Source: Eubacteriales bacterium (GTDB lineage Bacteria > Bacillota_A > Clostridia > Lachnospirales > Lachnospiraceae). From it: a DNA stretch of 11,446 nt. Of the stretch, positions 180 to 11,238 are shown in pieces. Location: NCBI GenBank assembly GCA_030527765.1, contig JAUNAE010000091.1:1-11446 (forward strand), in the 5' to 3' direction. The notes beneath the pieces were generated by a model. The model made no database searches and had not been told where the DNA came from. It saw nothing but the letters and a program-made list of their open reading frames with translations. The position numbers and the translations under genes were made by a program. Numbering within the stretch: position 1 is the stretch's first letter; each line of letters opens with the position of its first letter.

Positions 180-231
180 AAAAAAGTGACATAATCCTTC
201 TTTCCATCTCAGTCGGATTATGTCACTTTTT
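180..231 (-). terminator. Strong intrinsic terminator ending the 12-gene operon
   Basis: GTGACATAATCC (186-197) and GGATTATGTCAC (215-226) form a perfect 12-bp stem around a 17-base loop. The stem is flanked by an A-run on one side and a T-run on the other, so on the minus strand it ends in TTTTTT and works as a Rho-independent terminator. The upstream A-tract overlaps the stop codon of the HAD gene. Because the A and T runs are symmetric it could also stop transcription arriving on the plus strand. Confidence 0.9.
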
Positions 232-887
232 TATATCCGCTTCTGAAAATACTCTTTTACCTTCCAAAGCGATTCACAGATCAGCACGGAGATTTCTTCC
301 AGTTCCTGATTCGGTCCAGTCAGATCCGGCACCATAATCGGCATCAGACCTCCCTTGAATGCTGCCCGAAGACCATTTGGAGAATCCTCAATCGCATATG
401 CTTTCTCCGGTGCGATCTTCAGACGTTCACATGCACGCAGAAAAATTTCCGGATGAGGTTTGCTGTGTGTCACCATATCTCCACAGACGATCTCATCAAA
501 ATACTGAAACAAATCTGCATCTCGCAACGCTTTTTCCACCTGTGCACTTGCTGTAGAAGAGGCAAGTGCCACCGGTATTCCCTGCTCCTTCAGCCACTTC
601 AGAATTTCTCTTGCCCCTGGCTTCACAGGAAAACATCCACCGTATTTTTCACCCCAGAACAATCCTCTTGCCTCCGCTCTGTACTCCAGATATGGAAAAT
701 CTGCCCCATACCTGTTTAAGAAAATCTCTGTCGCAGCTTTCAGATTCAGGCCGGTGCAGCGCATACAGGTACCTTTGATATCCTCTATCCCATATCGATC
801 CGCAACGATCTGCCAGCACTCCTGAATCAGATGCTCCGTGTCAAAGATCACGCCATCCATGTCAAAAACAACTGCAAATTCACTCAT
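231..887 (-). CDS. HAD-superfamily hydrolase, beta-phosphoglucomutase/sugar-phosphatase type
   Basis: This 218-residue protein has all four HAD motifs. Motif I is FDMDGVIFDTE with nucleophile D9 and acid/base D11. Motif II is S110 in LASST, motif III is K143 in SKPHPEIF, and motif IV is E167-D168 in IEDSPNG. The helical cap inserted after motif I (about residues 18-85) places it with the beta-phosphoglucomutase/YniC-like subgroup. These are cytoplasmic Mg2+-dependent enzymes acting on sugar phosphates, as phosphatases or as mutases through an aspartyl-phosphate. It is the last gene of the operon, 22 bases after the asparaginase stop, with GGAG 7 bases before the ATG. In an Amadori pathway it might recycle or detoxify a phosphosugar such as a dead-end product, but the substrate cannot be read from the sequence. 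Confidence 0.9.
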   Translation of the reverse strand: MSEFAVVFDMDGVIFDTEHLIQECWQIVADRYGIEDIKGTCMRCTGLNLKAATEIFLNRYGADFPYLEYRAEARGLFWGEKYGGCFPVKPGAREILKWLKEQGIPVALASSTASAQVEKALRDADLFQYFDEIVCGDMVTHSKPHPEIFLRACERLKIAPEKAYAIEDSPNGLRAAFKGGLMPIMVPDLTGPNQELEEISVLICESLWKVKEYFQKRI

Positions 888-909
888 ATGTTTTCTCCAG
901 AGAGCCTAC

Positions 910-1908
910 CTACACCAGAATGTCATGATTGATTGTCTGATACAACATCGCTTCCTGCACCGCTGCATCGTGCTTCTGACTCAGAATCCACATGATTTTT
1001 GTAACAGTCGCCTCCAGTGTCATATCATAGGATTCCAGAATCTTGTATTTTTCCTTGATTTCCTTTCCAACCTGGTAAATGCTCATGTCACTGCCTTCGT
1101 GCGTCACCTGGGTAGCTAGTGCCACCAGTTTTCCCTGACGATTCCATTTCTCAATTGCCCTGGCAAAGCTGCCATCGCCGTAATCCGGCAATCCGCCAAC
1201 TCCAAAGGATTCTATGATCAGACCATCATAGTGGTCTGCCAGCGCGTCCAGTACTCCTGCATCCATTCCCGGAATCAACTTCAGCAAAACAACCTTTTCA
1301 TTCATTTCATGATAGAACTCCAGCGGTTTGCTGTTCTGATCCTTATCATCGATGTAGAAAATAATTCTTTTATCATGAATCACCGCAATATCCGGATAGT
1401 TGATACTGGAAAACGCATTATAGCTTTTTGAAAATTCCTTTTTCGCCCGGGTTCCCGCAATTACCTTTCCTCCAAATACAATACTCACTCCATGAGCTCT
1501 TGGATGGGATGCGAACCTGAGACTGTCCAGCAGGTTTGCTTTTGCGTCCGTAATAGCAAGGTCAATCGGCTTCTGCGCTCCCGTAATCACGACCGGCTTT
1601 TGATTATTCTGAATCATATAAGACAATGCCGCTGCAGTAAATGCCATCGTATCTGTTCCATGACAAATAACAAATCCATCATAATACTCATATTTTTTTT
1701 CGATAAGTTCAGACAAGATCACCCAGTGCTGCGCACGAATATTTGTACTGTCCAGTGAAAATGGTGAGATCGTATCAATCATACAAAACTCAGCTGCTTC
1801 CGGCACATAGGACAATAATTCCTCTGCAGTGATCTGCGGTGCCAGTCCTTTTTCTGTATATTTTGATGCAATTGTTCCTCCTGTTGCAATCAGCAAAATC
1901 TTTTTCAT
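910..1908 (-). CDS. Type I-like L-asparaginase, cytoplasmic, candidate fructosyl-asparagine deamidase
   Basis: At 332 residues this is close to E. coli AnsA (338). It starts MKKILLIATGGTIAS with nucleophile T12 in the GGTIA motif. D53-S54 (SLDSTN) would bind substrate, T85-D86 sit in the second signature CHGTDTM, and K157 (GTRAKK) aligns with the catalytic Lys of AnsA. The C-terminal part (ESFGVG, later DMTLEATVTK) also matches AnsA. There is no signal peptide, so it should act in the cytoplasm, unlike the secreted type II enzyme of the Salmonella fra locus. In this operon it probably deamidates fructose-asparagine, or its phosphate, to the aspartate form; plain asparaginase or glutaminase activity is the alternative. 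The nearest Shine-Dalgarno (AGGAG) lies about 13 bases before the ATG, which is unusually far, so translation may be modest. Confidence 0.9.
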   Translation of the reverse strand: MKKILLIATGGTIASKYTEKGLAPQITAEELLSYVPEAAEFCMIDTISPFSLDSTNIRAQHWVILSELIEKKYEYYDGFVICHGTDTMAFTAAALSYMIQNNQKPVVITGAQKPIDLAITDAKANLLDSLRFASHPRAHGVSIVFGGKVIAGTRAKKEFSKSYNAFSSINYPDIAVIHDKRIIFYIDDKDQNSKPLEFYHEMNEKVVLLKLIPGMDAGVLDALADHYDGLIIESFGVGGLPDYGDGSFARAIEKWNRQGKLVALATQVTHEGSDMSIYQVGKEIKEKYKILESYDMTLEATVTKIMWILSQKHDAAVQEAMLYQTINHDILV

Positions 1909-1938
1909 GTTGTGCAGTATTCTCCTGTTTTCGTTGTA

Positions 1939-2934
1939 TTAGTATTCTACTTTCCACATATATCGACGGGTTGAATAATCCTTCTGAATCGCTTTGGAAA
2001 GTTTTCTCATATATACATTATTCAGTATCGGGGAGAACAGGATATGATTAAAGTATTCGCACACAGAATCCCTGATTCGGTTGATTCCAAGCTCTTTTGC
2101 ATCCAGCAGATATATCTTTTCTCCACCATACGTATTCAGGAAGCGAATCGCTCTGTCATCAGCAGGACGGACTCTTCCCTCAGATACCAGTATAAATACT
2201 GAAGTACGTTTGTCAAGGATTTCAAATGGACCATGAAAGAAGTCACAGCAATTGATTGTCGGTGAATCCAGCTGAAGCATCTCCTCCAGATTGCAGATAG
2301 AGAAAATATAGGCAGAGCCCATCGCAGGACCACTCGCCATCACATAGATTACCTTCTCGTTTTTATTCTGATCTGCCCATTTTTCTGCCAGCGGTGTTGT
2401 ATACTCGACCGCCTTACGATAAATGTCGTCCACAATTTCAAAAGCATCCATCGCGTCCTGGAAATGCTGATATCCTTCTGTTTTTTCTACCAGGTGCATT
2501 GCAATTGACAGCGCAATGCTGGAATTCACCCGTTCCGTTCTGCTCTCATCCACTGCAATACTTTCATATTTTATATTGTAATCACAGATTCTTGTCATCT
2601 CTGATTCATCTACATACAGAGATAGCGTCACAGCCCCAAGTTCTTTTGCGGCTCTTGCCGCTTCACAGGTTTCTTTTGTTCCACGCATAGAGCATACGAC
2701 CGCTAATGTATTCCTGCCGCAGAAGGATGGCGGAGCAAATACAAATTCATTGCTGGTATATGCATGAGATCGTATCTCCTTTGCTTCATGTTCCATAAAA
2801 TACTGTGCAGGATAGAAACCGGCAAAGGATCCGCCTGCACCGATCCAGATGACAGATCTGATTCCACCATCCTCTGCTCTCTCTTCACAGATATTTTCGA
2901 TTACTTCTGTTATTTCTTCCTGAATATTTTTCAT
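1939..2934 (-). CDS. SIS-domain fructosamine-6-phosphate deglycase, second copy
   Basis: This 331-residue cytoplasmic protein has two SIS domains (about 25-150 and 190-315). It belongs to the FrlB/FraB group related to the isomerase half of GlmS. Its expected reaction splits a 6-phospho-fructosyl-amino acid into glucose 6-phosphate and the amino acid. E218 (NLEEML) and H234 (DFFHGPFE) are 16 residues apart, the same spacing as the catalytic Glu and His of GlmS (E488/H504) and FraB. The C-terminus RRYMWKVEY resembles the FrlB ending RRYYGGLVEY. It is clearly related to the deglycase at 4715-5683 but diverged: D231 replaces the Glu of the usual GEF.HGP motif and the N-terminus is longer. It starts 3 bases after the epimerase stop, with TGAGGA 7 bases before the ATG, so translation is probably coupled. 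Different amino-acid partners for the two copies are likely but unproven. Confidence 0.85.
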   Translation of the reverse strand: MKNIQEEITEVIENICEERAEDGGIRSVIWIGAGGSFAGFYPAQYFMEHEAKEIRSHAYTSNEFVFAPPSFCGRNTLAVVCSMRGTKETCEAARAAKELGAVTLSLYVDESEMTRICDYNIKYESIAVDESRTERVNSSIALSIAMHLVEKTEGYQHFQDAMDAFEIVDDIYRKAVEYTTPLAEKWADQNKNEKVIYVMASGPAMGSAYIFSICNLEEMLQLDSPTINCCDFFHGPFEILDKRTSVFILVSEGRVRPADDRAIRFLNTYGGEKIYLLDAKELGINRIRDSVCEYFNHILFSPILNNVYMRKLSKAIQKDYSTRRYMWKVEY

Positions 2935-2937
2935 CGT

Positions 2938-3780
2938 CTAGTCCTCAGGTCTCATATATCTTTCCAGATTACGAATGCTTCTCTTGTCATAGAATTCCGG
3001 ATGTTCAATATATCTTCCATCTGTAATATCCTGTCCAAGATACTTGTCGTATCCATAACGATTCAGAACAGAAATCCATTCTGCAAGATCATGAATACCA
3101 TCTCCCCAGATCAGCTGGCCCTCCGGCATACCATCTACAAAATGAATGTGTTCGATGTCATTTCCGAATGCTTCAAACCAATCCTCCATCGTTTCGCCTG
3201 CACAGCTCATCGCAGTCGTGTTAAGCATTGGTTTCAATGCTTTATTTCCAACCGTGCTGATCAGTTCTTTCAGATCTTCCAGCGTACATACTACGTTTCC
3301 AAAGCCACGAGGAGTTGTCTCTGCCATCAGAAGAATTCCCTCTCTTTCGGCAACCTGTGCCAGACGGGAAAGCATTTCCGTGCTTCTTTTATATCCTTCT
3401 TTCTTATCTTCTCCCAGATAACCCCAGCCACAGTTAATTCCCATACGGTCACATCCCAGCTCGGCTGTCAGATGAATCCCATTTGAAAAATATTTAAACG
3501 CTCTGTCCTTCTGGTCCTCTTCCCAGCCGGCAACCTGATACATATAAGCTGTATTCTCTGGTGTTACACATCCAATGTGGAAATCATATGAAGCAATCTT
3601 ATCTTTTACCTTATTCACATCATATGCACAATAATGATCCATCCAGATGTGAGGAGATCCTGCCCAGAATTCAATTGTCTCCATGCCAAGTTCTTTCTGT
3701 GCTTTCAGAAAATAATCCAACGTATAATAATGATAATGGTGGTTCATTACAGCCACCTGTTCTCTGCGAATATACTGCAT
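2938..3780 (-). CDS. FrlC-like TIM-barrel sugar epimerase, copy with altered metal site
   Basis: This 280-residue protein of the AP-endonuclease-2/xylose-isomerase-like TIM-barrel family resembles E. coli FrlC (fructoselysine 3-epimerase). Shared stretches include ELGMETIEFWAGSPH near the N-terminus and the CVTPEN segment at about 71-76. Family members bind a divalent metal through Glu, Asp, His and Glu. Here E154 (MAETT) and a His of HIHFVDG (211/213) are kept, but the Asp position holds N187 (PMLNTTAM) and the last Glu position holds D251 (GQDITDGR). The neighbouring paralogue has the standard residues at both places. Activity may therefore be changed or lost. It starts 20 bases after the other epimerase, behind GGAGGAGG. 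The shared N-terminus IRREQ-A-M--HY points to tandem duplication followed by divergence. Confidence 0.82.
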   Translation of the reverse strand: MQYIRREQVAVMNHHYHYYTLDYFLKAQKELGMETIEFWAGSPHIWMDHYCAYDVNKVKDKIASYDFHIGCVTPENTAYMYQVAGWEEDQKDRAFKYFSNGIHLTAELGCDRMGINCGWGYLGEDKKEGYKRSTEMLSRLAQVAEREGILLMAETTPRGFGNVVCTLEDLKELISTVGNKALKPMLNTTAMSCAGETMEDWFEAFGNDIEHIHFVDGMPEGQLIWGDGIHDLAEWISVLNRYGYDKYLGQDITDGRYIEHPEFYDKRSIRNLERYMRPED

Positions 3781-3800
3781 GTTTTCTTCCTCCTCCGAAA

Positions 3801-4640
3801 TTAATCTATAATATATGGACGGAATGCATCCATTGCTCTTTTGTCTGCCAGTCCAGGATTGTCCCAGTAACGTGAATCTGTAATTTCCTGAGTCAGATAG
3901 CCTTCGAAATGATTGTCATTGATAACCTGCAGATAATCTTCCAGCGGATATAATCCATCTCCCCATACAAGATGTTTATATGGTTTTCCATCAATAAAAT
4001 GCATGTGAACCAGATCTTTTCCAAGAGCAGCAAACCACTCTCTTGGTGTCTCATTTGCCACACCCATAGCAGTTGTATCCAGACCACCTTTTACATTCGG
4101 ACTGTCAACTGCTTTCAGCAGACGAACGAGTTCCGGAAGCTTGATAATTACCTTACTCTCCTCTGGTCGTACGGTTTCTACCGCAATTGTGATTCCATAT
4201 CCTTCCGCAACTTTTCCAAGTTCTGTCAGACTTCTGACCGCACGGTCAAATACACGCTCGTATTCTTCGTCCCATGCGCCTCCGATGCAGTTGGTAAGCA
4301 GCATTTTTGCACCAAGCTTTGATCCGCACTCCAGGCCGCGTTTAAAGTATTCCATACTCAGATCATGAAAGACTCCGTCCTCTGGTGCACACATCAGATA
4401 CTGATAGCCGGCACATTCCGGTGTAAAGCATCCGATATGAAGTCCTCTGTCTTCTGCCATTTTTCTTGCCTCATCCGGTGACTGATAGCATCTTTCATCC
4501 AGGTGATACTGTGGTGCAATTGCCAGAAATTCCAGTGTTTTAAAACCTGCTGCAGCCTGTGCATCCAGCATCTGTTCTAATGTACAATAACGATAATGGC
4601 ATCCCATTGCTGCCAGTTGCTCTCTTCTTATAGATGGCAT
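3801..4640 (-). CDS. FrlC-like TIM-barrel sugar epimerase, canonical copy
   Basis: This 279-residue TIM-barrel epimerase/isomerase is the paralogue of the next gene in the operon. The four expected metal ligands are all present: E155 (AVETV), D188 (GLDTTAMG), His in HMHFIDG (212/214) and E252 (TQEITDSR). By analogy with FrlC it would convert a 3-epimer (psicosyl-amino acid) into the fructosyl form accepted by the kinase. The exact substrate is inferred. A perfect AGGAGG lies 5 bases before the ATG. It begins just after a hairpin with a U-tract (4656-4694), so its expression depends on read-through from the deglycase upstream. The closest alternative is another ketose or inositol epimerase of the same fold, but the flanking deglycases favour an Amadori role. 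Confidence 0.85.
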   Translation of the reverse strand: MPSIRREQLAAMGCHYRYCTLEQMLDAQAAAGFKTLEFLAIAPQYHLDERCYQSPDEARKMAEDRGLHIGCFTPECAGYQYLMCAPEDGVFHDLSMEYFKRGLECGSKLGAKMLLTNCIGGAWDEEYERVFDRAVRSLTELGKVAEGYGITIAVETVRPEESKVIIKLPELVRLLKAVDSPNVKGGLDTTAMGVANETPREWFAALGKDLVHMHFIDGKPYKHLVWGDGLYPLEDYLQVINDNHFEGYLTQEITDSRYWDNPGLADKRAMDAFRPYIID

Positions 4641-4655
4641 TTTTTCCTCCTGTCT

Positions 4656-4694
4656 AAAAATGCCACCGCAGAATAATCTGCGATGGCACTTTTC
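4656..4694 (-). terminator. Intra-operon hairpin with U-tract, probably a leaky terminator or 3' stabiliser
   Basis: TGCCA (4661-4665) pairs with TGGCA (4684-4688) and CGCAGA (4667-4672) with TCTGCG (4677-4682), giving an 11-bp stem with one mismatch and an ATAA loop. On the minus strand the stem is followed directly by TTTTTA. It lies between the first deglycase and the first epimerase. Only 16 bases separate the U-tract from the epimerase start, leaving no room for a new promoter. It should lower expression of the five distal genes or protect the upstream mRNA 3' end. Confidence 0.8.
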
Positions 4695-4714
4695 TGCTTA
4701 TGAATAAGTTCTGA

Positions 4715-5683
4715 TTAATACTCCAGTTTCCACATATATCTTCTCATTGTAAGAGGATGATTTCTTTCTTTTGCAAGCTGCTCAGCATACATTCTGAGAA
4801 CGCCGCTCAGAAGAACTGGGTTAAAGTATTCTTTTACTTCTTTTGCAATTACGTTTCCGAGACCGAAATCTTTTGCATCGACAACTGTCATTTTTGCATC
4901 AAATCTCTGAAGGAATGTCATCGCACGGGCATCCATCGGACGAGTTGGACCATCATTCATAAGAAGCAGATATGGAACATCTTTTTCTGTAAGTTCGAAT
5001 GGTCCATGGAAGAACTCTCCGCAATGGAAAGAGGAGGAAGGTACCCACTGCATTTCCATCATCAGGAACATAGAGAAGGAATAAGCAACCATAGCTGTTG
5101 CACCTGAGCTCATTACATAGAGCATATCCATGTCTTTATATGCTTTACCAAATTCCTCTGCTCTTGGAAGAAGCATCTTCACAGAGTCATTGATCAGATC
5201 ATAGATTTTTGCAAATCCATCCTGCATCTTGTCGTAATGCTCATATCCCTCATATGTATTCAGAATTTCGCATGCAAGCGCAATAACATTTGTCATTTTT
5301 TCCATCTTGGCTGCATAATCTTTATAGAAGCCATGAATCAGCGCATATTTTGCATTTGTTGCCAAAGGTGAGTTCGGATCAGTTGTAACAGAAATTACTT
5401 CTGCATTCAGAGACATTGCCTTTTTTGTTGCCTCAACTGCTTCTGGTGTTCCACCGCTTAATGAACAGGTAATAACGACGGATCTTGGACCAACCGCTGC
5501 GGGTGTAGAATATACAAATTCATTAGCGGTATAAAGGCTTGCACGAAGTTTTTTTGCGTTTGCTTCAAAAAAGTATTTTCCTGGATACAGATCAGACTGG
5601 GAAGCTCCACAGCCTACAAAGTAAACAGAATCAATTTCAGGTTTTTCTGCACGAATTGCTGCTACGATTTCTTTTACGTTCAT
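4715..5683 (-). CDS. SIS-domain fructosamine-6-phosphate deglycase, first copy
   Basis: This 322-residue, two-SIS-domain cytoplasmic protein belongs to the FrlB/FraB family, which splits phosphorylated Amadori compounds into glucose 6-phosphate and an amino acid. The catalytic pair is E210 (MMEMQW) and H226 (CGEFFHGPFE), 16 residues apart as in GlmS and FraB. The GEF-HGP motif is intact, unlike in the second copy. The phosphosugar-binding loop is TCSLSGGTPE (72-81). The C-terminus RRYMWKLEY is nearly identical to that of the paralogue at 1939-2934. It follows the ABC binding-protein gene by 45 bases, with GGAGG about 12 bases before the ATG; no better in-frame start is visible. A hairpin follows its stop, so this copy is probably made at a higher level than the distal genes. 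Confidence 0.87.
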   Translation of the reverse strand: MNVKEIVAAIRAEKPEIDSVYFVGCGASQSDLYPGKYFFEANAKKLRASLYTANEFVYSTPAAVGPRSVVITCSLSGGTPEAVEATKKAMSLNAEVISVTTDPNSPLATNAKYALIHGFYKDYAAKMEKMTNVIALACEILNTYEGYEHYDKMQDGFAKIYDLINDSVKMLLPRAEEFGKAYKDMDMLYVMSSGATAMVAYSFSMFLMMEMQWVPSSSFHCGEFFHGPFELTEKDVPYLLLMNDGPTRPMDARAMTFLQRFDAKMTVVDAKDFGLGNVIAKEVKEYFNPVLLSGVLRMYAEQLAKERNHPLTMRRYMWKLEY

Positions 5684-5728
5684 GATTATAACTGACCTCC
5701 ACTTGAACAGTTGTTTTTCTTTATTTAT

Positions 5729-6610
5729 TTATTCTACTGTAAATGCTTTCAGAGCTTCAGCATCAAGCTGCTCTGCTGCATCATTCTGCATCTGAGCCCA
5801 AAGCCCTTCGCTTCTGATATCTGCAAAAAATCCGTTTGCCCACTCTGCAAAATCTTCGTTTCCATAAGCCATGCAAAGACCACAACCTTTGTCAAGGTCA
5901 TCACCAGGTGTCCAGCAAAGCTTGTCAACTACAACAAGGTCTGGGTTAGCCTGAGCAGACATAGCTGCTGATACAGCGTTCATTGCACCAAGTTCAAGCT
6001 TTCCGTTCTTAACTGCAAGAAGGATATCCGGAACTGTGCTTAATTCTTCGATCTGAGCATCTGGATATTTTGTTCCTGTGAAGACAACATCTGTAGATCC
6101 CATCTGAGCACCTACTGTAACACCTTCCAGTGTATCTGTGAATTTTTCATTGTCTGCATTTTCAGCAAGAGCTACATAGCACTCATCAGATTTGTGATAT
6201 ACATCTGTGAACAACCATGTTTCTTTACGTTCATCTGTTGGGGAAAGACGAGTTACAAAGAATACCTGATTTGCTTCCAGAGCTGACATACATCCTGTGA
6301 AGTCTGATTCATAGAATTCAACTGTTACTTCACGTCCAAGGTAATCAGAAAGACGTGTAGCCATTTCATACATACCAGCTACTTCGAAACCAGCAAGAAC
6401 ATCTTTTCCGTCTTCAACTGAATGGAAGCAGAATGTTGGGTCGTTTCCGATGATACCAACTTTAAGAACACCATTTTCAACCAGATCAGTAAAGATAGGT
6501 CCCATGTTTTCTGTGTCAAGAGCTGCTTCCTCTGCATAAGTAGCAACGCCTGCTGATAATGTCATTGCGCCGATCATTCCTAATGCAACTAATGTTTTTA
6601 AAGCTTTCAT
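5729..6610 (-). CDS. Extracellular solute-binding protein of the polar-amino-acid ABC importer
   Basis: This 293-residue SBP_bac_3-type protein follows the HisJ/GlnH plan. A signal peptide occupies about residues 1-26 (MKALK, a hydrophobic stretch, then TYA before EE). It lacks the lipobox cysteine expected of a Gram-positive binding protein. The first lobe begins ENGVLKVGIIGNDPTF. R128 (SPTDER) matches the Arg that holds the ligand alpha-carboxylate. N211 (LGAMNAV) replaces the Asp that normally contacts the alpha-amine, and R121 falls where HisJ has a Ser. Together these fit a ligand whose amine is substituted, as in fructosyl-amino acids; that is inference. The start at 6610 was chosen over an upstream ATG in the same frame because AAGGAG lies 6-7 bases before it and the signal peptide begins there. 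It follows the ATPase gene by 99 bases. Confidence 0.92.
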   Translation of the reverse strand: MKALKTLVALGMIGAMTLSAGVATYAEEAALDTENMGPIFTDLVENGVLKVGIIGNDPTFCFHSVEDGKDVLAGFEVAGMYEMATRLSDYLGREVTVEFYESDFTGCMSALEANQVFFVTRLSPTDERKETWLFTDVYHKSDECYVALAENADNEKFTDTLEGVTVGAQMGSTDVVFTGTKYPDAQIEELSTVPDILLAVKNGKLELGAMNAVSAAMSAQANPDLVVVDKLCWTPGDDLDKGCGLCMAYGNEDFAEWANGFFADIRSEGLWAQMQNDAAEQLDAEALKAFTVE

Positions 6611-6687
6611 TTTTTTCTCCTTTTTAATTATATTTATAAACCGCACCCTCGGTCTATATTCCAATCCGGTGATTCCGTCTCTGCATA

Positions 6688-6703
6688 AGGCAGTCATCTG
6701 CCT
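6688..6703 (-). other. Short hairpin between the ATPase and binding-protein genes
   Basis: AGGCAG and CTGCCT form a perfect 6-bp stem with a 4-base loop, 7 bases after the ATPase stop codon on the minus strand. No T-run follows, so it is not a convincing terminator. Hairpins at this place in ABC operons can act as mRNA processing or stability elements that raise binding-protein levels. The rest of 6611-6709 has only a weak 4-bp stem (6640-6653) and an A/T-rich leader with the binding-protein Shine-Dalgarno. Confidence 0.35.
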
Positions 6704-6709
6704 CAGCGT

Positions 6710-7465
6710 TTAAAGCATCTTACTCAGGAAGTCCTTGGTTCTCTGATGCTGTGGATTTCCGATTACTTCTTTCGGATCTCCCTCTTCTACAATGTATCCG
6801 CCATCCATGAAGATCAGGCGGTCACCAACTTCTCTTGCGAATCCCATCTCATGAGTTACTACTACCATAGTCATTCCATCCATTGCGAGCTGACGCATGA
6901 TCTGTAAAACCTCTCCTACCATTTCAGGATCGAGTGCAGAAGTTGCTTCATCGAAAAGAATTACTTCTGGTTCCATTGCAAGTGTTCTTGCAATCGCCAC
7001 ACGCTGTTTCTGACCGCCGGAAAGCTGTGCCGGATAAGAGCCTGCCTTGCTTTCCAGACCAACTCTTCTCAAAAGCTCCATTCCCTTTTTTTCCGCTTCT
7101 TCCTTCGGTACTTTTTTCACCTTACGTGGTCCGATTGTTACGTTGTCGAGAACACTTAAATTTTCAAAGAGATTAAAAAGCTGGAATACCATACCGAATT
7201 TTTCACGATACTCGTCAATCTTCATTCCTTTTCCTAAAATTGACTGACCATGGAAAAGGATATCTCCACCGTTTGGCGTTTCCAGAAGGTTCAGACATCT
7301 CAGCATGGTTGATTTTCCGGAACCGGATGGCCCGATTACTACCACGGCTTCGCCTTTGTGAATCTCAAGATTTACATCCTTTAAAACCTGCAGTTCACCA
7401 AAATTCTTTTTCAGATTTTCGACCCTGATTACTACTTCTTTTGTCTTTTCATTAGTCATGTGCAT
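6710..7465 (-). CDS. ATP-binding subunit of the polar-amino-acid-type ABC importer
   Basis: This 251-residue ABC ATPase of the GlnQ/HisP family powers uptake from the inner face of the membrane. It shows Walker [10 protein letters not shown] (about 44-52), the Q-loop in MVFQLFNLF, signature LSGGQKQR, Walker [15 protein letters not shown] and the switch His in VVTHEM. Walker B reads DEATS where DEPTS is the more usual form; both occur in active enzymes. The reading frame overlaps the permease gene by 14 bases, so the two are translationally coupled. The start at 7465 has AGGAG 5 bases upstream; a second ATG two codons later is an equally valid choice. With one permease gene present, the transporter is expected to be a permease homodimer with two ATPase subunits. 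Confidence 0.95.
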
Positions 7466-8105
7466 GAAGTCTCCTTTCCAATACGCCGATTAACTTCTTG
7501 ATCACATAAGTAATTACGAAATAAATTACTGCTACTACGATCAATGGCTCAAATGCAAGGAAGGTATTTGCACGAACTGCATTCGACATATAGGTCAGTT
7601 CGTGAAGTGCAATTACAGATACGATTGATGTATTTTTAATCAAAAGAATGAATTCATTACACAAAGACGGAAGGATATTCTTGATTGCCTGTGGAATGAT
7701 AATATACCAGTTCGCCTCCAGCTTTGACATTCCGATACAGCGAGCTGCTTCCATCTGCCCTTTGTTTACCGCCTGCATACCGGCTCTGGTGTGTTCTGCA
7801 ATATACACAGAGCTGTTTACTGTGAGGGACAGAACTGCAGCCCAAAACTGAGGCAACTGAGTTGCAATTCCGTAATAAACAATAAATACCTGAACCATTA
7901 CCGGTACACCACGGATAAAATTTATGAAGGCATCAATGATCTGACTAACTACCTTGTAATTCTGAACACGAATCATTCCCATGATAATTCCAAGAATTGA
8001 TGCGAAGATCAATGTCCAGAAAGCAAGCTCCAACGTCAGAATCACACCATCGCGATAATAAAACCAATACTTTTCCAGGAAAGCAAAATTCATACCAAAA
8101 ATCAT
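7452..8105 (-). CDS. Permease subunit of the polar-amino-acid-type ABC importer
   Basis: This 217-residue membrane protein belongs to the HisM/GlnP family (HAAP permeases, His/Glu/Gln/Arg/opine group). Hydrophobic segments at about 20-45, 60-80, 85-105, 150-170 and 183-205 fit the five-helix core. The cytoplasmic EAA loop that docks on the ATPase is well conserved: [17 protein letters not shown] followed by [10 protein letters not shown]. It is the only permease gene in the operon, which suggests a homodimer. The family includes transporters for opines and other amino-acid conjugates, in keeping with an Amadori substrate. The start has TGAGGA 6-7 bases upstream. It follows the YjbQ-like gene by 21 bases. 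Confidence 0.95.
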
Positions 8106-8126
8106 TTTTTATCCTCACTTTCCTGT

Positions 8127-8558
8127 TTATTCTTCGCCCATTACTTCGATAAAGTAGCCTCTTCTCTGAAGACCGTCAAACTCCACAAAGTAAATATTCT
8201 GTTCCCCACCTGTCATCATCTTTCCGTTAATTACAGGGAATATACAGTGATTTCCCGCCAGCATGGATTTCAGATGTCCCGGTGAATTGCCTGAACAGGT
8301 ACCATAGGTCGGAAGCATATGTGTATGCACATACGGATAATCTGTCGGTACCAGACGTTCCAGCTGAAGTTCAATATCTTTTTCTACACACGGAAGTGCT
8401 TCATTAATCATAATTCCAGTTGTTGTATGTTTTGTAATCACTGCAACCATACCGTTTTTGATTCCACTCTCTTCCACTGTTCTCTTTACTTCATCAGTGA
8501 TTAAAATCATGTCGAATTCATGTTTGGATTCGAGCTGTCGTTCATATAATTTAACCAT
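8127..8558 (-). CDS. YjbQ/UPF0047 family protein
   Basis: This 143-residue protein carries the family's conserved points: H44 in KHTTTGIMINE (with N52-E53), H95 in GNSPGHLKSMLAG, and the C-terminal TGGEQNIYFVEFDG with Q120, E126 and D128. The ending DGLQRRG differs from the more usual DGPR-R. The family forms small trimeric beta-rich enzymes with a His-lined site. A weak thiamin-phosphate synthase activity is reported for E. coli YjbQ, but the physiological role is unknown, and I do not infer one here. The ATG directly abuts the TAA of the amidohydrolase gene, and its GGAGGG Shine-Dalgarno lies inside that gene's last codons, so the two are translated together. That suggests they act in one step. 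Confidence 0.88.
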   Translation of the reverse strand: MVKLYERQLESKHEFDMILITDEVKRTVEESGIKNGMVAVITKHTTTGIMINEALPCVEKDIELQLERLVPTDYPYVHTHMLPTYGTCSGNSPGHLKSMLAGNHCIFPVINGKMMTGGEQNIYFVEFDGLQRRGYFIEVMGEE

Positions 8559-9410
8559 TTAGCCCTCCAGTCCGAGGAAACGTTCTGCATTTCCTCCAAT
8601 GATTGCCTCCAGAACCTCCGGACGAAGCGGCAGATTCTTGATACCTGCAAGACTTCTGATGTGACGGAATCTTGGAGTATTGGAACCATACATAACCTTC
8701 TCAGCAAAGCAGTTCTGAAGCCAGTTCAGATCCATATTCACTGAGAATAAATGTGAATAATAGTTCTTTGGTGAATCCATATAAACTGTAGAAGTGTCTG
8801 CATAAACGTTGTCATACTTCATTAGCATCATGATTGTTTCTTCCCACCATGGCCATCCCATATGGGCCAGACAGAAACGCAGATTTGGGAAATCCACTGC
8901 AACATCTTCAAAATTAATCGGTCGTGCATATTTTGAAGGCGTGTTTGGTTCCCAGCTGTATCCTGCATGGAACATGATTGGTTTGTTTCTTTCTTCACAG
9001 ATTTCATAAAGAGGAAGCAAAGAAGGATCATTTGGATACATATGAAGTCTGGAAACATTCAGCTTCAGACCAGAAAGTTTCAGTTCATCAAAAGCACGAA
9101 CCAGTTCTTCTTTTGCATCACTTCTTCTTGGATCCACTCCTGCAAATCCAATAAAATGCTCCGGACTGCTGTCAACGATTTTTTTCATTTCATCATTGCT
9201 GACCATCGGAGGCTGTCCTTCAGAAGAGTAATCTTCTCCAAGAAGAACAACTTTATCGATCTGAGCATCTTTTAACAGGGTCAGTTCAAAATCAAGCGGC
9301 GTAATTCCTGATTTATACACACCAAGCTGTTTTCTTCTTCTCTCGAAATCTTCCCGGTCCTGATTGATCACATCAAATAAAATCGGATGTGCATGAATAT
9401 CAATTACCAT
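8559..9410 (-). CDS. COG2159-type amidohydrolase with substituted metal-ligand Asp
   Basis: This 283-residue TIM-barrel metal-dependent hydrolase/decarboxylase-like protein belongs to the amidohydrolase superfamily (ACMSD-like group). It has the HxH motif in DIHAHP (H6, H8), H148 in MFHAG and H183 in LAHMGWPWWEE. The usual GSDyP motif near the C-terminus, whose Asp is the last metal/catalytic ligand, reads YGSNTP with N244, encoded by AAT. The enzyme may have an altered metal site or be non-hydrolytic. The start at 9410 was preferred over an ATG six codons upstream because AAGGAG sits 7 bases before it and the HxH motif then falls at the usual N-terminal place. Together with the YjbQ-like gene it has no counterpart in the E. 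coli frl or Salmonella fra loci; its substrate here is unknown. Confidence 0.87.
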   Translation of the reverse strand: MVIDIHAHPILFDVINQDREDFERRRKQLGVYKSGITPLDFELTLLKDAQIDKVVLLGEDYSSEGQPPMVSNDEMKKIVDSSPEHFIGFAGVDPRRSDAKEELVRAFDELKLSGLKLNVSRLHMYPNDPSLLPLYEICEERNKPIMFHAGYSWEPNTPSKYARPINFEDVAVDFPNLRFCLAHMGWPWWEETIMMLMKYDNVYADTSTVYMDSPKNYYSHLFSVNMDLNWLQNCFAEKVMYGSNTPRFRHIRSLAGIKNLPLRPEVLEAIIGGNAERFLGLEG

Positions 9411-9470
9411 ATCGTTTCTCCTTTTCATTTGTTTTCTATTAAAAACGGAGCTTCTGTCCGCTTATTCTCA

Positions 9471-10274
9471 TTAAAGATAAGGATCAAATGTACCGATTAC
9501 CTTTGCAGATCTCTTCGCACCCTCATACATGCATTCATCAATCGGCTTATGATCAATCATTCCGGAAATAAATCCTGCAAAATAGGAATCTCCTGCTCCT
9601 ACCGTATTTACTACTTCTTTCACCGGCACGATGTCACCTCTGTAGAATTTTTCACCGTCATATGCAAGGGATCCCTGTTCTCCAAATGTTGCAATCATCA
9701 CCTTTGTTCCAAGGCTGCATGCGTACCGGAGATACTCTTTTCCTTCTTCCATAGTCCCATCAAATGAAACCAGACCACAGTCGATGTTGCTCAGGATATG
9801 CTTTGCATCCGGATCATTTCTTCTGGTACTTAAATCAAAATAAATCTGCACGCCTCTCTTGTGGATTTCCTCCAGACGAGGAATCAGTTTTCCGGTAAAG
9901 TCAGAATGCATAATGTCATGCTGACAGATAAAATCAATCGCTTCTTCTGAGAATTCATAGTTTCCCATGACACCTCTGACTGGATCTCCATGAACACGGT
10001 CATTATTGATCAGATGAAGCGGTACACTAGGTGTTGCTCCTCCCGGAATAATGTCGAGATGAGAGCAGTCAATACCTCTCTTCTGAAAGGCTTCCAGAGA
10101 TGCCTTTCCATATTCATCATCTGAAATTGCCGAAACAACCGAGGATGTCACATCCTGTCTCAGGTCCAGTAAATTAAACAGTACATCTACTCCATTTCCT
10201 GTCACATAATATCGATTATTAAAATCAGGATAGTAATCAATACATACATATCCGGCAGCCGTAAATTTCACCAT
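9471..10274 (-). CDS. PfkB-family sugar kinase, FrlD-like fructosamine 6-kinase
   Basis: This 267-residue ribokinase-type kinase (E. coli FrlD has 261) would phosphorylate the imported fructosyl-amino acid at C6 in the cytoplasm. Similarity to FrlD is visible through the middle: NDRVHGDPVRGVMGNY and SEE near 91-112, where FrlD has NDRVFGDYTEGVM. The PfkB signature NTVGAGDSYFAGF (223-235) carries catalytic base D229 and the anion hole GAGD. The substrate-side glycine motif near residues 25-28 reads TGNG where FrlD has GGNA. It is the first gene of the catabolic operon. The start at 10274 was chosen over an ATG eight codons upstream because AAAGGAG lies 8 bases before it. Specificity (lysine, asparagine or other conjugate) cannot be read from the sequence. 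Confidence 0.9.
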   Translation of the reverse strand: MVKFTAAGYVCIDYYPDFNNRYYVTGNGVDVLFNLLDLRQDVTSSVVSAISDDEYGKASLEAFQKRGIDCSHLDIIPGGATPSVPLHLINNDRVHGDPVRGVMGNYEFSEEAIDFICQHDIMHSDFTGKLIPRLEEIHKRGVQIYFDLSTRRNDPDAKHILSNIDCGLVSFDGTMEEGKEYLRYACSLGTKVMIATFGEQGSLAYDGEKFYRGDIVPVKEVVNTVGAGDSYFAGFISGMIDHKPIDECMYEGAKRSAKVIGTFDPYL

Positions 10275-10334: not shown

Positions 10335-10363
10335 ATAATATCATCATTCTCTGTTTTTGTAAA
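10335..10363 (-). promoter_or_regulatory. Sigma-A-type promoter of the catabolic operon
   Basis: On the minus strand a -35 box TTTACA (10358-10363) and a -10 box TATTAT (10335-10340) are separated by exactly 17 bases. Each differs from consensus at one position. Transcription should start near 10328, giving a leader of about 54 bases that holds the candidate operator and the Shine-Dalgarno of the kinase gene. Confidence 0.75.
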
Positions 10364-10431: not shown

Positions 10432-10489
10432 AAAAAGACAGAGACGTCTGAACAGCAGATCTTGATCTGCCATTCAGACGTCCCTGTCT
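10432..10489 (-). terminator. Strong intrinsic terminator of the gntR gene
   Basis: A hairpin of about 22 bp (10437-10488) is built from GACAG, GACGTCTGAA and GCAGATC and their complements, with a TT loop and small internal loops. On the minus strand it is followed by TTTTT. It begins 24 bases after the regulator's stop codon and separates the regulator from the catabolic operon. On the plus strand no T-run follows, so it acts in one direction. Confidence 0.93.
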
Positions 10490-10512: not shown

Positions 10513-11238
10513 TTACAAGTTGAACATATAACGACTACCCAGATAATATTGATGTCCAATACACAGAGGTTTCTGATCCTGATTTAAGAACAGAACATTC
10601 ATATAAAACAGCGGTTCATTCAAAGGAACATTCATAACTTTTGCAATATCCGCTGATGCTCTGGCGATTTCAATAGAGCGAGACTGCGTATTTACAAATG
10701 ACTCACCATACATTCTGTTAACCGTATCAAACAAAGAAACATCATTCAGATCCACTGAAAGCAAATCTTTGTATTTTTCGTACGGAAACAGGTGATTTTC
10801 CAGTAAAACCGGAATTCCATCTGCGGTTCGAACACGCTCTATAAATATAAGCAGTGCTCCATCCTCCAGCCCGAAGAACTCTCTCTCATTTTTTCTAGCA
10901 GGTACAATCTGACGCTTCAATACCTTCGCCCCTGCCACCATGCCTTCGTCCCTGCATGAATTTGTAAAGCTTCGAACCCATCCGGCTACTCCGACAATTT
11001 TACGATGAATACGCGGACTTCTGACAAAAGTTCCTTTTCCCTGAATTTTCACCAGATAACCTTCTGTACACAGTTCTTCAATTGCCCGTCGGACTGTGAT
11101 TCTGCTTGCATTGAACTCTTTGATTAATTCCTGTTCGGATGGAATCTGATCTTTTGTTTTATAAGTACCATCCTTAATAGACTTTTTTATGTCCTCCTTG
11201 ATCTGTTGATAAATTGGTACAATCGAGTTTTCTCTCAT
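10513..11238 (-). CDS. GntR-family regulator of HutC/UTRA type, FrlR-like
   Basis: This 241-residue regulator has an N-terminal winged helix-turn-helix (about 5-75): PIYQQIKEDIKKSI, the IPSEQEL turn, SRITVRRAIEEL recognition helix, and the wing GKGTFV. A UTRA ligand-binding domain follows (about 95-235). This is the architecture of FrlR and FraR-type regulators, whose effectors are often a phosphorylated pathway intermediate. The start at 11238 was preferred to an ATG 40 codons upstream because the homology begins there, AAGGGG lies 7 bases before it, and the longer reading would cover the promoter. It is monocistronic, closed by the terminator at 10432-10489. A 10-bp element shared by its own promoter and the catabolic operon suggests autoregulation and control of the operon. 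Repression relieved by a sugar-phosphate intermediate is the likely mode. Confidence 0.9.
   Translation of the reverse strand: MRENSIVPIYQQIKEDIKKSIKDGTYKTKDQIPSEQELIKEFNASRITVRRAIEELCTEGYLVKIQGKGTFVRSPRIHRKIVGVAGWVRSFTNSCRDEGMVAGAKVLKRQIVPARKNEREFFGLEDGALLIFIERVRTADGIPVLLENHLFPYEKYKDLLSVDLNDVSLFDTVNRMYGESFVNTQSRSIEIARASADIAKVMNVPLNEPLFYMNVLFLNQDQKPLCIGHQYYLGSRYMFNL

Follow-up and report, generated by a model that had tools for sequence, protein, structure and literature searches.

The question raised by positions 1 to 11,446 of contig JAUNAE010000091.1, from a Eubacteriales bacterium of the Lachnospiraceae (assembly GCA_030527765.1), is which pathway its single long run of genes serves; this whole stretch of 11,446 nucleotides is called the window hereafter. 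Twelve open reading frames (ORFs), all on the minus strand, occupy positions 231 to 10274; this run, proposed by a first-pass annotation made from the letters alone, is confirmed, and it can be read as a single operon preceded by the gene of a GntR-UTRA regulator. The same annotation took the run for a composite of the frl and fra operons, joining a FrlD-like kinase, two FrlB/FraB-like deglycases, two FrlC-like epimerases, an amino-acid-type ATP-binding cassette (ABC) importer and an asparaginase. The Amadori-type set of kinase, deglycases and importer withstood analysis, and a role of the operon in handling glycated amino acids (Amadori compounds) is well supported by homology and context; the readings of the kinase, of the second epimerase and of the asparaginase had to be changed. 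Moreover, the earlier gene list omitted two genes, and hence a recurrent cassette made of a kinase (KIN), an amidohydrolase-family protein (AMH) and a YjbQ protein, which is the most interesting content of the window and whose chemistry is testable. We consider it probable, with some reserve, that the run is an Amadori-type operon plus this conserved KIN-AMH-YjbQ cassette, the latter acting on the product of KIN.

The three cassette genes stand first in transcription order, which is KIN, AMH, YjbQ, ABC permease, ABC ATPase, solute-binding protein (SBP), SIS1, TIMb, TIMa, SIS2, asparaginase and HAD phosphatase. KIN (9471..10274, with the start at 10274 chosen by its ribosome site) is a PfkB kinase with the motif TGNGVD and is likely a sugar-amine 6-kinase; AMH (8559..9410, start 9410 by ribosome site) is a TIM-barrel enzyme of the Amidohydro_2 family with an ACMSD-like fold; YjbQ (8127..8558) is a UPF0047 protein of a subfamily specific to the cassette. 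With an AMH profile built from 24 sequences, 294 relatives were confirmed, one genome per species, and the best 80 loci of the 294 were analysed (loci are numbered with L and genomes with G); 21 of these stretches are shorter than 17 kb, their genes are greedy ORF picks and not gene-finder calls, and the family names of permease, carrier and hydantoinase-type neighbours derive from one scanned representative per cluster. YjbQ occurs in 79 of the 80 loci, about 0.86 kb past the AMH start, the exception lying at a contig end. Length limits removed some ORFs, leaving a usable kinase in 72 loci and, with the window included, 77 AMH and 74 YjbQ sequences for alignment.

The association was also followed in a sample drawn independently of AMH, 200 genomes taken evenly from the family of an Enterocloster metagenome-assembled genome (MAG), that is, Lachnospiraceae. 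Strong AMH matches (E < 1e-100) were found in 11 of these, whereas the three weaker ones among the 14 matches in all (G035, G055 and G130; E 7e-44 to 2e-31) were set apart. YjbQ of the cassette type (E < 1e-40) occurs in exactly the same 11 genomes (p 2.6e-18), and 23 further genomes have ordinary YjbQ only, scoring at most 75.5 bits. The motif could be read in all 20 FrlD-like kinases of the sample (E ≤ 1e-30): every AMH genome has one of type TGNxxD, 11 in all, and of the nine kinases with GGN or GGG, five come from AMH genomes and four from genomes that lack AMH. With these cutoffs, the KIN clade, AMH and cassette YjbQ are together in 11 of 200 genomes and never apart, AMH and YjbQ being the most conserved partners of KIN. 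A deglycase resembling SIS1 (E 1e-45) is present in 7 of the 11 AMH genomes versus 11 of the 189 others (p 3.7e-6), and all seven lie less than 7 kb from AMH; the AMH genomes with no SIS1-like match (G058, G097, G100 and G184) have a GGN or GGG kinase within 8 kb.

As for the kinase, the best NCBIfam match of KIN is FrlD (NF007321), with 224 bits and under the cutoff of 247 bits, and its TGNGVD motif is to be compared with GGNAVN in E. coli FrlD. In a tree of 104 kinases (102 ORFs from AMH loci, 220-330 amino acids long, together with KIN and E. coli FrlD), 71 sequences with T or A at the first motif position, KIN among them, split with support 1.0 from 33 that have GGN, GGG or GGQ..N; the larger group comprises 68 TGN..D, two TGN..N and one AGN..D. 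The residue before GAGD is V in 70 of the 71 TGN/AGN-type kinases and M in 31 of the 33 of GGN type, and the C-terminus is P[YW] in 69 of the former and in 0 of the latter. Of the 72 loci in which a kinase passed the length filter, 70 have one of TGN type, and in L028 and L066 such a kinase falls outside the filter; the count from these 72 loci of the kinase tree is used in place of a tally over all 80, which includes kinases with unread motif, that of Sphaerochaeta among them. Judged by these residues and by the tree, KIN is not FrlD proper, as had been annotated at first, and belongs to a separate TGNxxD clade, sister of FrlD and tied to AMH and YjbQ. The NCBIfam FrlD model was considered as a means to separate the clades and was dropped, since several TGNxxD kinases exceed its cutoff (those of L032, L048, L050, L057 and L075), which the kinases of the window, L001 and L022 miss.

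Loci of Chloroflexota bear on the relation between the two kinase clades. In Levilinea, one protein of 538-541 amino acids unites a GGNPVN with a TGNVVD kinase, the GGNPVN half first (L060, 4020-5636; L064, 4013-5638), and in L079 the genes for a GGN-type and a TGN-type kinase overlap; on these grounds, the two types would work in one pathway and would not be spare copies of each other. The Levilinea fusion, which joins a KIN-type to a FrlD-type kinase, also ties the cassette to the Amadori pathway. In the genomes of L001, L008, L010 and L011, TGN is the sole kinase type retrieved with E. coli FrlD (E 1e-12) and SIS1 is in the locus, so that in these genomes the deglycase probably works with the TGN-type kinase.

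Regarding AMH, the HxH motif and two further histidine metal ligands of the Amidohydro_2 family are present, and among the 77 aligned sequences H12 and H189 are kept in all, and H14 and H154 in 76 each. Enzymes of the amidohydrolase superfamily usually have Asp after strand 8; AMH has Asn at position 250 in 76 of 77 sequences, this position being equated with that of strand 8 from the motif and not by structural superposition. The predicted structure (pLDDT 91) led the fold comparison to ACMSD-type decarboxylases, hydratases and lactonases, and deriving a reaction from this comparison was rejected, as such neighbours name no single one. YjbQ passes TIGR00149 with 108.9 bits (cutoff 67.75), and the cassette members form a monophyletic subfamily (support 1.0) distinguished by C57, C105 and an extra loop with residues 82-86; they share H78, H95, D61 and several glycines with 18 ordinary UPF0047 members, a family whose structurally solved relatives carry no assigned role. 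A second YjbQ of the cassette type was observed on another contig in G227 (L009), G230 and G231 (L012 and L013), G006 (L055) and G220 (L001), and these genomes therefore probably have two cassettes for different substrates.

The two deglycases, correctly recognized as FrlB/FraB-like by the first-pass annotation, are SIS1 (4715..5683) and SIS2 (1939..2934), 35% identical to each other. SIS1 matches 3eua ("putative fructose-amino acid 6-phosphate deglycase", which we take to be B. subtilis FrlB) with 258 bits and 9otj ("SIS domain protein", presumably Salmonella FraB) with 253 bits, while SIS2 matches 9otj with 243 and 3eua with 173 bits; their best E values against FrlB/FraB-type structures are 1.5e-75 and 5e-71, respectively, and SIS2 reaches 20 bits with the Pfam SIS model, below its 25-bit cutoff. 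The motif E-x15-HGP is kept in both, as E210/H226 in SIS1 and E218/H234 in SIS2; the catalytic pair of FraB is taken here as E214/H230, which corresponds to 234/250 in the chain numbering of 9otj on the assumption of a 20-residue tag. Since both proteins keep the pair, their assignment holds as far as family and catalytic residues go. Both miss the FrlB equivalog cutoff of 430 bits (SIS1 with 80 and SIS2 with 36 bits); this model would have been built on FrlB of the E. coli type, and FraB-type proteins may fall outside it. Six of 299 genomes encode SIS2 relatives (58-64% identity), in five cases beside a GGNE[YF]N kinase; no AMH, YjbQ or asparaginase is present in the stretches around these six loci, and sugar-type ABC proteins were confirmed in two of them (L121 and L123). 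Among the 80 AMH loci, four (L001, L015, L065 and L076) have SIS2 relatives of at least 59% identity.

In its other loci, the cassette recurs beside deglycase loci fed by FrlA-, DcuA- and ABC-type transporters. A SIS1/SIS2-like ORF is found in 45 of the 80 and the E-x15-HGP motif in 32, while the carriers beside the cassette are an FrlA-like permease in 21 loci and a DcuA/DcuC-type protein in eight. Eleven loci have the order KIN-TIM-AMH-YjbQ-FrlA-GntR-FrlD-type kinase, some with one extra gene, often followed by GntR and SIS; in the Paenibacillus loci L034, L037 and L046, a fra-like block of SIS, GGN kinase and DcuA lies ahead of KIN-AMH-YjbQ (separated from it by one gene in L037), and in L027 a SIS gene is located further downstream of the cassette. 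In L001 and L004, which are closest to the window, the same importer follows YjbQ directly: L001 reads GntR-KIN-AMH-YjbQ-PERM-ATP-SBP-SIS1-SIS2, and L004 goes on to SBP-TIMb-TIMa near a contig end. The whole gene set of the window was found in none of the 80.

Other arrangements are of interest in themselves. The culturable [Clostridium] asparagiforme (L062) has the cassette, an FrlA-like permease, both kinases and SIS in one run, and in Paenibacillus and Cohnella (L023, L025 and L040) about four to five FrlC-like TIM-barrel genes, or pieces of them, are arrayed after the cassette. Other culturable carriers are Frisingicoccus caecimuris DSM 28559 (L009) and P. macerans (L034), the latter with both kinases. 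Hydantoinase A/B-type genes are present in 7 of the 80 loci, in six of them within the same operon (L019, L020, L021, L029, L030 and L032; hydantoinase/oxoprolinase A and/or B); the lactam or hydantoin-like substrate at which they hint was not adopted, the loci being too few.

Several observations weigh against an Amadori-type operon whose cassette acts on the KIN product. Both kinase types are present in 30 of the 72 loci, so that the TGNxxD kinase may have a substrate other than that of FrlD; in 35 of the 80 loci no SIS gene lies inside the analysed stretch; and the homologies of AMH and YjbQ name no reaction. Furthermore, among 20 AMH genomes searched for SIS1-like proteins, mostly chosen for having no linked SIS, two have no FrlB/FraB-like protein and only ORFs of GlmS length, namely the Bacillus MAG of L033, with a full cassette and a TGNxxD kinase, and the spirochaete Sphaerochaeta halotolerans. 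In the latter (L080, 9014-11279), AMH-YjbQ has a tagatose kinase-like gene as well as a sugar-type importer for company, with no TGN kinase, so that the pair can serve non-Amadori compounds: either it serves another phosphorylated sugar there, or to read it in terms of Amadori compounds is too restrictive. Counting this locus as a full cassette without deglycase was dropped, its kinase being tagatose kinase-like.

Some of these data are also what would be expected if the cassette were a self-contained, SIS-independent pathway, in which KIN phosphorylates a sugar-amine other than the FrlD substrate, AMH and YjbQ carry out its degradation, and the SIS proteins serve a second substrate brought in by the same uptake system. 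The retention of both kinase types in the 30 loci and the L033 genome agree with it, as do five loci with KIN-AMH-YjbQ and neither SIS nor GGN kinase in the stretch (L016, L017, L022, L048 and L055). However, a SIS1-like protein (E ≤ 1e-20) is encoded in 18 of the 20 AMH genomes, often away from AMH, the co-occurrence with SIS in the family sample is strong, and the L033 genome is a MAG that may be incomplete; we regard this explanation as unlikely, though deserving of serious attention.

The composite of frl and fra proposed at first, acting on fructose-asparagine, other fructosyl-amino acids and their C3 epimers with AMH and YjbQ as bystanders, draws on the gene set itself, on the preference of SIS2 for 9otj over 3eua and on the position of the asparaginase gene, 30 bp past SIS2. 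It meets difficulty in the kinase, which belongs to the distinct clade that accompanies AMH and YjbQ, and in the epimerase-like barrels. TIMb (3801..4640) and TIMa (2938..3780) are both AP_endonuc_2 TIM barrels with fructoselysine 3-epimerase as best match (109-111 bits, 110.6 for TIMb, against the FrlC equivalog cutoff of 305). The epimerase reading suits TIMb, where the metal ligands E-D-H-E are all kept, and is weakened for TIMa, a FrlC-like barrel which has E-N-H-D and so differs in two of the four, while EDHE is found in 70 of 77 compared barrels. A TIMa relative in L004 (8731-9654, 70% identical) also has E-N-H-D, and this shared set suggests a conserved altered function and not decay.

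The asparaginase (910..1908) creates a further difficulty for the composite. Its family had been named correctly, and its score assigns it to the cytosolic type I (305 bits, cutoff 260.5) and not to type II (108 bits, cutoff 314); its N-terminus, MKKILLIATGG, has no signal peptide by eye, and it is thus unlike FraE, which is periplasmic in Salmonella according to the portions of PMC10100877 at hand. Relatives occur once each in 11 of 12 cassette genomes, and at the nine places examined no homologues of the operon enzymes are nearby, the Frisingicoccus copy standing beside nadA. No asparaginase or HAD protein above 60 bits adjoins the cassette in the 80 loci (the best reaching 44 bits), nor does an asparaginase stand beside SIS2 in its six loci. 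Since it is the ordinary type I enzyme of the family, standing away from such genes in the relatives examined, it is weak evidence for fructose-asparagine, which is not established as the specific substrate; for the same reasons, the idea that the gene derives from a fra locus was dropped. All in all, the composite seems improbable.

An alternative role for AMH and YjbQ is that of a detoxification or repair pair, which clears toxic sugar-amine 6-phosphates or cyclised by-products. In fraB mutants of Salmonella, 6-P-fructose-aspartate has a toxic effect, as stated in the consulted parts of PMC12755824 and PMC4941530, and the solved YjbQ relatives of unassigned role leave space for such an activity; on the other hand, the cassette has its own kinase and, in the relatives of the window, an importer as well, and this points to use of a nutrient; we hold a pure clearing role to be doubtful. 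Lastly, catabolism of an unrelated sugar or amino sugar, with only a family-level likeness to frl, could appeal to the breadth of the PfkB, SIS and TIM families, to the sugar-binding protein cluster shared by L019, L021 and L080 (Peripla_BP_4 in L019) and to the tagatose kinase-like gene of L080, but the E-x15-HGP motif, the FrlB/FraB-level similarity and the FrlA- and DcuA-like companions make it very improbable.

Returning to the preferred reading, that of an Amadori-type operon with a cassette acting on the KIN product, glycated amino acids would be taken up by the ABC importer of polar amino acid type. This is a single importer, as first annotated, made of a permease (7452..8105) and an ATPase (6710..7465), both of polar amino acid type, named from sequence and with relatives adjoining the cassette elsewhere, and of an SBP_bac_3 solute-binding protein (5729..6610, start 6610 by ribosome site) whose start resembles a signal peptide by eye. 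KIN would then phosphorylate the sugar at C6, and SIS1 and SIS2 would split the 6-phosphates into glucose 6-phosphate and an amino acid, probably with different amino acid partners, while TIMb may return a sugar isomer to the pathway by epimerisation. The asparaginase and the HAD-IA phosphatase (231..887, beta-phosphoglucomutase-like by family match) would be window-specific additions trimming amide and sugar phosphate. AMH and YjbQ, for their part, would act on what KIN produces, the simplest candidate being a sugar-amine phosphate that has cyclised or resists the deglycases in some other way. We infer that the operon is in essence the cassette with its importer, to which TIMa-SIS2 was added as a block along with two common genes.

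As for the boundaries of the operon, the intergenic gaps within the run span -14 to 99 bp with starts picked by ribosome site, and -14 to 74 bp with the printed ORF starts. The GntR-UTRA gene, a probable repressor (10513..11238, minus strand, start from the printed sequence), lies upstream of KIN with 238 bp between them. This interval holds a strong terminator-like hairpin (10439..10486, minus strand) and a promoter-like TTTACA-17-TATTAT with TG ahead of the second hexamer (10335..10363, minus strand), identified by consensus match; directly after the HAD stop, a perfect 16-nt inverted repeat (182..230) is a likely terminator, although absent from the terminator-scan list. Promoter-like sites in the window number 27 against 26.7 expected from shuffles, and because they are no commoner than in shuffles the site upstream of KIN is weak evidence, and the boundaries rest mainly on spacing and hairpins. 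Scans of the window for tRNA genes and with Rfam found no element.

Heated food is rich in glycated amino acids. The gene frlD is a marker for their breakdown by gut microbes, as set out in the available part of PMC9749803; the TGNxxD clade, with several members above the FrlD cutoff, would distort metagenome counts based on frlD, and public annotation probably merges the two clades. The cassette also links UPF0047/YjbQ, a family without an assigned role, to one pathway, and the defined subfamily, its partners and the culturable hosts make the function testable. A bolder and rather tentative proposal is that KIN(TGNxxD)-AMH-YjbQ forms an unrecognised phosphorylation-dependent route, which either breaks down glycated amines with no need of a FrlB/FraB-type deglycase or opens up a form that is beyond the reach of those enzymes; if true, this would be the first defined metabolic role for UPF0047, and many genes named frlD would encode another kinase.

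In the open-licence literature, no paper on the KIN-AMH-YjbQ cassette appeared among the matches listed, which were available in part; the amidohydrolases named together with Amadori operons, among the matches listed and in the parts available, are other ones, and none was listed that combines "secondary thiamine-phosphate synthase" with an amidohydrolase. The gene set for riboflavin catabolism, as far as the excerpts of PMC12934955 describe it, differs from the cassette. Compared with known systems, the window is like the E. coli frl operon (frlABCDR) in having a kinase, a SIS deglycase, an FrlC-like epimerase and a regulator (FrlR in frl), and unlike it in the ABC importer, where frl has FrlA, the two deglycases, the TGNxxD kinase, AMH, YjbQ, the asparaginase and the HAD phosphatase. 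With Salmonella fra (fraR fraBDAE) it shares a FraB-like protein, SIS2, a kinase and a gene of the asparaginase family, but it has no DcuA-type FraA, its type I asparaginase has no evident signal peptide, and AMH and YjbQ are present. The frlBONMD-frlP genes of B. subtilis likewise combine ABC uptake of alpha-glycated amino acids with a kinase and a deglycase, with another importer make-up and no AMH/YjbQ as described in the excerpts of PMC12632257; the SIS2-relative operons resemble this fructosamine operon. The fructoselysine cluster of Intestinimonas AF211, a gut Clostridium, is similar by description in its ABC importer, kinase and deglycase, and the parts of PMC4697335 that were available make no mention of AMH/YjbQ. 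The fra genes, for their part, are likely of Clostridia origin, and Clostridia consume fructose-asparagine (PMC12755824 and PMC10100877, from the sections at hand). In conclusion, a clostridial Amadori operon is not new, because the ABC-fed clusters of Intestinimonas and B. subtilis and fra in Clostridia are already in print; the operon of the window is a variant of this known type, and the KIN-AMH-YjbQ cassette would be its new element.

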